NCBI RefSeq assembly: GCF_035581365.1
Contig: NZ_CP141590.1
Location: 744,001-808,000 of the forward strand
Reading direction: 5' to 3'
Source of the DNA: Tsuneonella sp. CC-YZS046
Lineage (GTDB): Bacteria; Pseudomonadota; Alphaproteobacteria; Sphingomonadales; Sphingomonadaceae
DNA: 64,000 bases
Both the position numbers and the translations under genes were made by a program. Within the stretch, counting starts at the first letter, position 1; each line of letters opens with the position of its first letter. The notes under the pieces were generated by a model. The model did no database searches, was not told the origin of the DNA, and saw only the letters and a list, made by a program, of their open reading frames with translations. Positions 12,184 to 27,163 of this stretch are shown here, piece by piece.

Positions 12184-12500
12184 GCGCGCGAATATGGGGG
12201 AGCGGGCGGGGCGGTGCAATATGTTCCCGGCATGTTCGCCGCGCTGGAAAAATCTTTCCTACATGCGCCCGAATCCCTATCCAGCCATCGGAAGGAAAGT
12301 TCCACGTCTTTTCAGATCGTTTTGCCTGCCTTTTGAGAGAATATCTTTTTGCCTTGAACAGTGTCAACCCTGTCACCCCCCCCCCGCACCGGCAGGCAGG
12401 GAAAAGGGCGTTTCGCACAAGGCGTTGGCTTTGAGTGCGCCGGGTTGTTACCAGTGCGGATCCGTGCGGCCGCGGCCGCCTTTATCGAGGGAGAATTGGA
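12184..12500. other. Intergenic region between uvrB and the DUF3617 gene
   Basis: This 317-base divergent gap holds no gene that I can support. It contains the uvrB SOS box (12223-12237), a run of ten cytosines (12376-12385), and the ribosome site GAGGGAGAA just before 12501. No convincing -35/-10 pair stands out for the rightward gene. Confidence 0.6.
12223..12237. promoter_or_regulatory. LexA (SOS) box upstream of uvrB
   Basis: GTTC at 12223-12226 and GTTC at 12234-12237 are separated by exactly seven bases, the alphaproteobacterial LexA consensus GTTC-N7-GTTC. It lies 40 bases before the uvrB start, and uvrB is a classical SOS gene, so the match is unlikely to be chance. Confidence 0.82.
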
Positions 12501-25337: not shown

Positions 25338-25892
25338 ATGACCGGGAAGATCCCTGTGATAATGGCGCTGAGCCTGGCGCTGGCGGCTTGTGCCTCGGGT
25401 CCGCCGGTTCCGCTGCCGCCCCGCGCGCCTTCGATCGCCACGGTTCCGGCGCCACCCGCGCCGAGGCCGGTGCGGGTGGATTTCGTGCTGGTCGACAAGT
25501 CTGACCGGACGCTGACGCTATATGGCGAAGGGCTGGCCCTGCGCACCTATGGCGGCCTGCAATTCGGCGATGCACCCATGGGGCACAAGCGGTTTGAAGG
25601 GGACGAGCGCACGCCAGAGGGGCGCTATGTGCTGGATTATCGCAACCCGCAAAGCTCCTATCATCTCTCGCTCCATATCTCCTACCCGAATGAGGCGGAC
25701 CGGGCCTTCGCCGCGCGATCCGGGCGCTCGCCCGGCGGGCTGATCTTCATCCATGGCCAGCCCAACGGATGGCCGGACGGCGAGCGCGTGCCGGGAGACT
25801 GGACCGACGGTTGCATCGCCCTCTCCAATGCCCAGATCGAGGAACTCTGGACGCTTGTTGCCGATGGCACGCCGATCGAGATTCGGCCCTAG
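25338..25892 (+). CDS. L,D-transpeptidase (YkuD) family lipoprotein
   Basis: This 184-residue exported protein has a lipoprotein signal ending ALAAC, a Pro-rich linker (PPVPLPPRAPSIATVPAPPAP), and a YkuD domain. That catalytic domain contains the histidine in LIFIHGQPNGWP and the nucleophile cysteine in DWTDGCIALSN. These enzymes cross-link or attach proteins to peptidoglycan. The TDGC motif replaces the common SHGC, so activity is expected but specificity is open. ATG 25338 is chosen because it precedes the signal; an upstream reading overlaps purA. Confidence 0.87.
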   Translation: MTGKIPVIMALSLALAACASGPPVPLPPRAPSIATVPAPPAPRPVRVDFVLVDKSDRTLTLYGEGLALRTYGGLQFGDAPMGHKRFEGDERTPEGRYVLDYRNPQSSYHLSLHISYPNEADRAFAARSGRSPGGLIFIHGQPNGWPDGERVPGDWTDGCIALSNAQIEELWTLVADGTPIEIRP

Positions 25893-25906
25893 AACATGAA
25901 CGGAAC
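25892..25906. promoter_or_regulatory. SOS-like box 1 (reverse orientation)
   Basis: GAAC (25892-25895) and GAAC (25903-25906) are seven bases apart, the reverse complement of GTTC-N7-GTTC. It lies 59 bases before the gene at 25965 and overlaps the last base of the transpeptidase stop. Confidence 0.6.
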
Positions 25907-25910
25907 ATTC

Positions 25911-25916
25911 TTGACA
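25911..25916 (+). promoter_or_regulatory. Candidate -35 element for the regulator gene
   Basis: A perfect TTGACA sits between the two SOS-like boxes. The -10 position is weak, so only the -35 is claimed. A LexA dimer on box 2 would cover the expected -10. Confidence 0.4.
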
Positions 25917-25928
25917 TAATCCCGTTAT

Positions 25929-25943
25929 GTTCTCATCATGTTC
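25929..25943. promoter_or_regulatory. SOS-like box 2
   Basis: GTTC (25929-25932) and GTTC (25940-25943) are separated by exactly seven bases. The box is 22 bases before the chosen start and downstream of a TTGACA, the position where a repressor blocks transcription. Confidence 0.68.
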
Positions 25944-25964
25944 AAGACTTTCGGGGAGGTGAAC

Positions 25965-26936
25965 ATGATCCGGGCCGATTTTGCCTATGATATTCCCAGC
26001 AATCAGGCGGACGTTCCGCTTACTCTCTCCATTCATGCCGACCGGCCGCATGTGCGCGAACAAATGCGTGAGGATGCGGAGAGTGCCCGGTTTCGCGTGA
26101 TCGAATGCGGCTCGTTGGGTGCGCTGCTGGAGGGTGAGGCGCGGGCGCTCGGCGAAATCGTCATGCTCGATTGCCCGCAACTGGATGCGGCGGGCATGGC
26201 CGCGCTTTGCCGGCTGGATATTCGCGCATCGCGTTCCGGCGCGCGGTTGATCGTATCCACCAGCCTCGATGTGCTGGATGAGGTATTTGCCTGTCTGGAC
26301 AGTTCGGAGCCGGATATTCTTGTCGATCCCGGCCGCGCGGATCGCGTGATCGCGCTGGGGCAGGCATTGGCCAGGCGTTCCGATGGCCGTGTGCGTGAAT
26401 TGTCGGAGGAAGACCGGATGACCCTGCTGCGCCTGACGGAGCAGGTCAGCCGGATTGCCGAACGGCTGGGGCGGCTGGACGGGCCTTCCGAATCTGCCGC
26501 TGGTTCGGCCTTGCGGCTGGTATCCCCCTCTGTAAGCGGGGGCAGCGATTCCAGCGACCCCTCGCGCCTTGTGCAGCTTTTCACCCCTTCCTTGCCGGAC
26601 CCGCGGCTGGTGCGCCAGATTATCCGCCAGCGGCAATTGCGCTCGCGTTTCTTCGATGGCGATCTGTTCGCCGACCCCGCCTGGGACATCCTGCTCGATC
26701 TCACGGCTGCGCGGGTGGAGAATGTGCGTGTATCTGTCACCAGCCTTTGCATCGCTTCCGGCGTTCCGCCGACCACGGCCTTGCGCTGGATCGGTCAGAT
26801 GACCGATGCAGGGCTTCTGGTGCGGGTGGAAGACAAGACGGACCGGCGCCGTGCCTTTATCGACCTTACGCAGCAGGCGGCGGATGGAATGGCGCGTTAT
26901 TTCGGGGAACTGGGTGAAGCGCCGCTGCCGATCTGA
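25965..26936 (+). CDS. Pseudo-receiver plus winged-helix (MarR-like) regulator, predicted SOS-controlled
   Basis: This 323-residue protein starts at the ATG at 25965, which follows GGGGAGGT at 25953-25960; an ATG at 25938 lies within the SOS-like box. The first 120 residues look like a CheY-type receiver fold lacking the phospho-aspartate set: SIHADRPHVREQM, GEIVMLDCPQLDAAGMAAL, SGARLIVSTSLDVLDEV and PDILVDPGRADRVIALGQAL. The C-terminus is a MarR/LysR-like winged helix with TSLCIASGVPPTTALRWIGQMTDAGLLVRVEDKTDRRRAFIDLT. A helical linker (LTEQVSRIAERLGRL) joins the two parts. It may repress or activate damage-response genes; that follows only from the promoter. Confidence 0.75.
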   Translation: MIRADFAYDIPSNQADVPLTLSIHADRPHVREQMREDAESARFRVIECGSLGALLEGEARALGEIVMLDCPQLDAAGMAALCRLDIRASRSGARLIVSTSLDVLDEVFACLDSSEPDILVDPGRADRVIALGQALARRSDGRVRELSEEDRMTLLRLTEQVSRIAERLGRLDGPSESAAGSALRLVSPSVSGGSDSSDPSRLVQLFTPSLPDPRLVRQIIRQRQLRSRFFDGDLFADPAWDILLDLTAARVENVRVSVTSLCIASGVPPTTALRWIGQMTDAGLLVRVEDKTDRRRAFIDLTQQAADGMARYFGELGEAPLPI

Positions 26937-26970
26937 CAGGATTTAATGGTTGGGGGCTATTCGACCCTCC

Positions 26971-27030
26971 AAAGTGCCATTGGGTGTCTTTAGGTGCCGT
27001 TGGGTTCCGCTCGGTGCCATTCTGTTCCGC
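26971..27030. repeat. Degenerate 20-bp tandem repeat, three copies
   Basis: Three consecutive 20-base units share the pattern xxRGTGCCRTTxxGTxYCxx: 26971-26990, 26991-27010 and 27011-27030. For example the middle unit is TAGGTGCCGTTGGGTTCCGC. They lie just before the tRNA-Val promoter, in phase with two helical turns. Confidence 0.65.
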
Positions 27031-27041
27031 GAAGAGGGTGG

Positions 27042-27087: not shown

Positions 27088-27163
27088 GGGCGGTTAGCTC
27101 AGTTGGTAGAGCATCTCGTTTACACCGAGAGGGTCGGCGGTTCGAGCCCGTCACCGCCCACCA
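27088..27163 (+). tRNA. tRNA-Val (anticodon TAC)
   Basis: This is a complete 76-base cloverleaf. The acceptor stem GGGCGGT pairs with ACCGCCC, the anticodon stem TCTCG/CGAGA encloses the loop TTTACAC with anticodon TAC (27121-27123), the T-arm GGCGG-TTCGAGC-CCGTC-type is present, and CCA is encoded at 27161-27163. Anticodon TAC reads GTA and, by wobble, other valine codons. Confidence 0.97.

Follow-up and report, generated by a model that had tools for sequence, protein, structure and literature searches.

The well-known targets of LexA are mostly repair genes, and to our knowledge few transcription factors are kept in the LexA regulon over a broad clade. One described LexA-controlled transcription factor is the membrane LytTR protein HigX of Caulobacter crescentus, which owes its LexA control to an inserted higBA promoter; in the authors' view, this control is confined to strains with higBA (PMC13384398). 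In Myxococcus xanthus, the DNA-damage response is adjusted by DdiA, an XRE-family transcription factor that damage induces independently of LexA (PMC12288472).

The gene described here is located in a window of 64,000 nucleotides (the whole stretch of DNA that was analysed) from the genome of Tsuneonella sp. CC-YZS046. Its product would resemble HigX, as described there, in being a transcription factor under LexA control in an alphaproteobacterium; it differs in that HigX is a LytTR protein with higBA-derived control, while in the present case it is the gene's own promoter that has kept the LexA box over a large clade. A role as a damage-response transcription factor, predicted in the present case, would be shared with DdiA, which by its description belongs to the XRE family and is induced without LexA. 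The winged-helix DNA-binding domain is similar in profile and fold to that of the MarR family (HosA and PefR in the PDB), but here it is preceded, from the N-terminus on, by a receiver fold, a helix and a linker, and the Pfam cut-off for MarR is missed. Its receiver fold comes first and its winged helix last, as in response regulators of the OmpR/PhoB type (KdpE, PmrA); unlike in these, the winged helix is of a MarR-like type, and the receiver lacks the lysine and one pocket acid. The gene product is a previously unstudied regulator that, judging from these features, probably binds DNA. No publication recognisable as being on this gene was found in a literature search confined largely to open-access papers. 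LexA regulons of Sphingomonadales may be listed in RegPrecise. A transcriptome of Sphingopyxis granuli records the induction of SOS genes in anoxia, and no such regulator is among the genes listed in the part of that report considered here (PMC6472365).

The promoter of the gene carries two GTTC-N7-GTTC boxes on opposite strands, with a TTGACA between them (Table 1). These elements are exact where the initial annotation had seen them, as is the box it had noted before uvrB in the same window, and the identity of uvrB is backed by a profile match. The gene start had to be revised: it is likely the ATG behind the GGGGAGG, which is also residue 1 at which many orthologue matches begin; in an alternative longer frame, the start codon (ATG 25938) would fall within the proximal box. 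The distal box overlaps by one base the stop codon of an L,D-transpeptidase gene that lies upstream. At its place 18 bases past TTGAC, the proximal box is expected to overlie the -10 region, and a -10 element would fall at 25934-25939, 17 bases past TTGACA; a -10 region inside the LexA box would be a classic layout of a repressed promoter. No operon with a neighbour is proposed; the next gene in the 3' direction is a tRNA-Val gene (27088-27163). Between the two genes (26960-27040), short and degenerate GGTGCC(A/G)TT-type repeats were seen by eye.

Table 1. Features of the regulator locus and the internal reference site (positions in the window)
Feature	Position	Strand	Basis or remark
LexA-type box before uvrB	12223..12237	+	exact match; third site in the window and its internal reference
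Distal LexA-type box GTTCCGTTCATGTTC	25892..25906	-	exact pattern match; rank 8 of 88 genome sites
-35 element TTGACA	25911..25916	+	read from the sequence; position-wise conservation among orthologues
Proximal LexA-type box GTTCTCATCATGTTC	25929..25943	+	exact pattern match; rank 10 of 88 genome sites
Probable Shine-Dalgarno sequence GGGGAGG	25953..25959	+	read from the sequence
Predicted regulator gene P0001, 323 aa	25965..26936	+	likely start ATG 25965
Receiver-fold domain, residues 20-141	26022..26387	+	AlphaFold2 model, VIA, NtrC receiver profile match
Codon of Asp69, phospho-acceptor position	26169..26171	+	NtrC register
Long helix, residues 148-171	26406..26477	+	AlphaFold2 model; followed by a low-confidence linker, 175-204
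MarR-like winged helix with flanking helices, residues 213-317	26601..26915	+	HTH_27, Foldseek, profile

The genome supports the view, put forward in the initial annotation, that GTTC-N7-GTTC is the form recognised by LexA in this organism. A LexA scoring above the NCBIfam lexA cut-off is encoded, and its own gene has the box as well, 55 bp ahead of the start. Among the identified genes, the box also precedes recA, uvrA, uvrB, rmuC and the genes of a PcrA/UvrD helicase, a DNA polymerase IV-like (DinB-like) protein, an ImuA-like protein, an MmcB-like protein and a radical SAM protein of the PA0069 type. These names are from NCBIfam or Pfam: a curated cut-off is passed by LexA, RecA, UvrA and PA0069 (NCBIfam) and by RmuC and the MmcB-like protein (Pfam), whereas the polymerase IV-like and ImuA-like proteins score below it, as do UvrB and PcrA/UvrD, both of which are cut by the ends of their loci (UvrA is also cut but is above the cut-off for one model). 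A scan of the genome (3.35 Mb) returned 88 exact sites, those before lexA, recA and the repair genes included. Many of the exact sites are background, because the reversed pattern occurs 55 times; the same is probably true of many of the 31 sites that a simple gene caller places in promoter-like positions. When the sites were scored with a matrix built from the sites of these ten identified genes, from which the two boxes of the regulator gene had been left out, the distal and proximal boxes ranked 8th and 10th of the 88; the ranks are a guide only, since the matrix is small and the recA and rmuC sites score below 0 when left out of it in turn.

GTTC-N7-GTTC is said, with reference to work by Erill in 2004, to be the LexA form of Alphaproteobacteria. 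MarR regulators often bind their own promoter, which would speak for a binding of the boxes by the regulator itself or by another factor in place of LexA, but since lexA, recA and further repair genes of the strain are preceded by a box of the same form, which is also the one ascribed to alphaproteobacterial LexA, such a binding is very improbable. Consensus motifs for LexA containing GTTC and GAAC, building on the 2004 work, appear in part of a later article (PMC6473078).

Several other sites of this kind are located near genes of different functions. The best-scoring site of the genome by the matrix (GTTCTTTATATGTTC) lies 109 bp upstream of a gene for a PAS-GGDEF protein (L009:1500-3015; G000:C1 near 355493), so that a diguanylate cyclase may be part of the SOS regulon. 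The gene of the PA0069-family radical SAM protein (L127:1993-3103; G000:C1 near 1404961) has its box 12 bp upstream and is a candidate SOS gene. A site ranked 6th of the 88 is found about 160-225 bp upstream of the gene for ribosomal protein S2 (L028:1500-2507; G000:C1 near 907920), and another box precedes by 19 bp the gene of a 119-aa protein that has no Pfam match (L134:1993-2384; G000:C1 near 1684427); on the other strand of the latter locus, 185 bp away, a frame of 238 aa resembles a phage-type repressor by eye. The genome also holds a second match to the LexA DNA-binding domain (L170 / L116; G000:C1:58747-58926), which scores above the cut-off with 31.8 bits; its open frame of 135 aa is too short for a whole LexA.

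LexA control is also supported by the orthologues of the regulator gene. A first set comprised 80 loci from named genomes, the best 80 of 244 relatives, with labels including Novosphingobium, Erythrobacter, Qipengyuania, Pontixanthobacter and Croceicoccus; a second set comprised the 29 best other matches (L171-L199). The two sets overlap, with 102 distinct gene starts among the 109 loci. The exact proximal box is present near the start in 68 of the 80 and 26 of the 29 loci (94/109 together), whereas the reversed pattern is found in 3/80 and 2/29, and eight equally sized windows elsewhere around these genes contain 0-2 matches per set. Patterns with spacers of 4, 5, 6, 8, 9, 10 and 11 bases in place of seven match in only 2, 2, 0, 0, 0, 0 and 1 of the 109 loci. 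In 81 of the 94 orthologue promoters with the exact box, the distance from TTGAC to the box is exactly 18 bases.

Nine of the 15 loci lacking an exact box have a box with one mismatch exactly 18 bases past TTGAC (L043 and L181 are identical there). Sites with one mismatch are common anywhere (52 of 237 control windows), and only those at the fixed place were counted. In this count, the proximal site is kept in 103 of the 109 loci; in six loci (L073, L078, L088, L109, L110 and L193), no box, exact or with one mismatch, is present at that place. A base-by-base footprint over 93 promoters picks out the -35 element, the LexA box and a few bases of the spacer, with no strong conserved element beyond them; a conserved second operator, through which the regulator might control its own gene, was not seen in this footprint, so that autoregulation is without support. 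The flank examined contains a purA-like sequence in 71/80 and 22/29 of the orthologue loci.

Since genomes labelled Novosphingobium, Erythrobacter, Qipengyuania and relatives have kept the box, the -35 element and the distance between them, the link to LexA is probably under selection. The prediction of SOS control made in the initial annotation is supported by the joint conservation of the proximal box and the -35 element, and the regulator gene is very probably controlled by LexA. A chance origin of the boxes is ruled out by their position and conservation rather than by their number in the window, where GTTC-N7-GTTC occurs three times against 1.35 expected and at least three occurrences are reached in 12 of 100 shuffles.

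The distal box has a much narrower distribution than the proximal one. Of 103 orthologue loci, six have a second site 25-45 bases before the proximal one, compared with 1, 3 and 2 in three further windows of the same size; in a narrower sample, from which loci with a short upstream region or no exact proximal box are excluded, 6/93 promoters have a second site within 75 bp that differs in one base at most. Paired boxes are thus ruled out by their rarity (6/103) as a general design of the family. Nevertheless, two loci of Altericroceibacterium (L039 and L058) have an inverted second site at the distance of 37 bases found in the window, with one mismatch per box, and in L044 an inverted second site that matches exactly lies at 41 bases; the pair is perhaps functional in some lineages.

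At E <= 1e-6, matches to the protein are present in 308 of the 396 genomes of the order, a count that also takes in short winged-helix paralogues, and all matching genomes belong to one family. Among 20 listed genomes of the 88 without a match, 5 are members of this family and 15 of others. In the class, 17/289 genomes match, and the 13 of them outside the family do so in the C-terminal part only. In a sample of 30 genomes with distant homologues, chosen by hand, an exact box occurs near the gene in 5/30 or 6/30, depending on the window used, compared with 1/30 for the reversed pattern and 0-1 in neighbouring windows, which indicates that SOS control is not needed for the basic function of the family. 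Some of these distant homologues may not be strict orthologues, because purA is present in the examined flank of only 4/30, compared with 71/80 and 22/29 above (the flank lengths differ). In a tree of 70 rows, which combines a half sample of the orthologue alignment (A1) with all 30 distant rows, 35 of the 40 box-bearing rows fall into a supported clade of 41 rows. A single gain of the box is not borne out: the tree needs 11 label changes among its 70 rows, at least four of which are forced by the starred branches.

Two adjacent short winged-helix paralogues that have no receiver are encoded elsewhere in the genome (L168:5650-7075; G000:C1:231649-233074), with no exact LexA-type site nearby. 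By eye, the region upstream of the first is AT-rich and contains a TTACA-N4-TGTAA inverted repeat.

The architecture read in the initial annotation, in which a MarR-like winged helix follows a receiver-like domain, is agreed on by the AlphaFold2 model, VIA, Foldseek and the profiles. In the AlphaFold2 model (mean pLDDT 81.6), residues 20-141 form a five-fold beta-alpha domain; with a pTM of 0.46, the arrangement of the domains is not readable from the model. The fold of the N-terminal domain is that of a receiver: residues about 17-142 align with receivers in VIA (best 3crn_B, Z 13.7, 119 residues, rmsd 2.6), whose list is filled by receiver matches and hardly tests the rest of the protein. 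Foldseek ranks proteins of the MarR type (PefR, HosA) first, with receiver proteins mixed in from rank 11 (E about 1e-4). In a profile of 79 rows, residues 240-306 match MarR chains (E 0.0011) and residues 21-132 the receiver of NtrC (E 0.0044), and a profile of the N-terminal domain alone matches the receivers of NtrC, CheY and LuxO (E 0.011-0.076, with 0.011 for NtrC); these E-values are weak singly, but they agree in place and register.

Both domains are remote from the standard models. HTH_27 is barely above its Pfam gathering score (22.7 versus 22.2 bits), and the gathering scores of MarR (14.8 versus 24.6 bits) and MarR_2 (17.5 versus 27) are not reached by the protein of the window, which is therefore named MarR-like and not a member of the MarR family. 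The MarR model matches 77/79 members at E <= 1, whereas Pfam Response_reg matches only 2/79 at the same threshold, which sets the receiver well apart from ordinary ones. Conservation is highest in the winged helix: in alignment A1 (L063 and L081 left out; start set by hand for L077, L092 and L104), 32 of the 37 invariant columns are located at residues 210-296, which suggests a conserved DNA site.

This architecture also bears on what a LexA-controlled product might do. It might work on the DNA in repair or as a nucleoid protein, or be a checkpoint factor that, by binding a few chromosomal sites, stops division or the initiation of replication, given that LexA control is silent on function, that the identified genes with a box in this genome are mainly repair genes, and that no target sites or target genes of the regulator were found and no motif was derived. 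Such a role appears unlikely, because a receiver-like domain followed by a MarR-like winged helix is the layout of a regulator, and because family members without a LexA box and the short winged-helix paralogues fit transcription factors better.

The receiver had been annotated as devoid of phosphorylation residues, which turned out to be only partly correct. In the register given by the NtrC profile alignment, and counted over 79 rows that include the protein of the window, position 69 is Asp in 78 rows and Glu in one, Thr99 (the position of the switch Thr) is present in 78/79, and Asp26, one of the pocket acids, in 75/79. A receiver wholly without phosphorylation residues is thus ruled out by Asp69 and Thr99. 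What does hold is the loss of the other two residues: the second pocket position (25) is Ala in 75/79 rows, and position 121, that of the lysine, is never Lys (0/79) but Asp in 40, Thr in 17, Glu in 10, Ala in 5, Asn in 3, Ser in 2, and Gly and Met in one each. Because the lysine and the second pocket acid are missing, the domain is filed not as a response regulator but as a degenerate receiver that keeps part of the phosphorylation site. Two cysteines were also observed in it, namely Cys70 beside the Asp at the acceptor position (75/79 rows) and Cys110 (90% or more in alignment A1).

The residues retained are those on which a variant of the LexA-controlled regulator, compatible with the main reading, would depend. 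The protein could be a true response regulator that is phosphorylated by a histidine kinase at Asp69 while LexA sets its amount, forming an AND gate of DNA damage and a second signal; Asp69 and Thr99, as conserved as they are, align with the acceptor Asp and the switch Thr of NtrC, and Asp26 is nearly as frequent. We nonetheless consider this variant improbable, in view of the lysine position that never holds a Lys and the Ala in place of one pocket acid, and also of the distant homologues, in which position 69 is Asp in 8/30 and Glu in 9/30 and position 99 is Thr in 11/30. Without the lysine, the receiver is unlikely to switch like that of a normal response regulator.

From the computed box, promoter layout, conservation and domain folds, we infer a mechanism in which LexA would bind the proximal box over the -10 region of a sigma-70-type promoter, with TTGACA as its -35 element, and keep the regulator gene repressed. 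In the genome of this strain, the second box upstream of the -35 element probably tightens the repression. Upon DNA damage, active RecA would promote the self-cleavage of LexA, and the regulator would be made; using the MarR-like winged helix to bind DNA sites of its own, it would alter the expression of further genes and thereby add a second tier to the SOS response. Dimerisation or the sensing of a signal is the probable role of the receiver-fold domain. That the loss of LexA releases a second-tier transcription factor, made when DNA is damaged, is in our judgement likely. A more specific version is tentative and rather doubtful: throughout a clade of Sphingomonadaceae, LexA might free a regulator whose lysine-less Asp/Thr receiver acts as a non-canonical switch and which drives a separate group of damage genes that have no LexA box.

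With the link to LexA kept in many sphingomonads, the DNA-damage response of these bacteria probably switches on a second regulator, and a second SOS tier would be open to direct test in them. In addition, the regulator offers an example of a receiver that has no lysine yet retains the Asp and the Thr.
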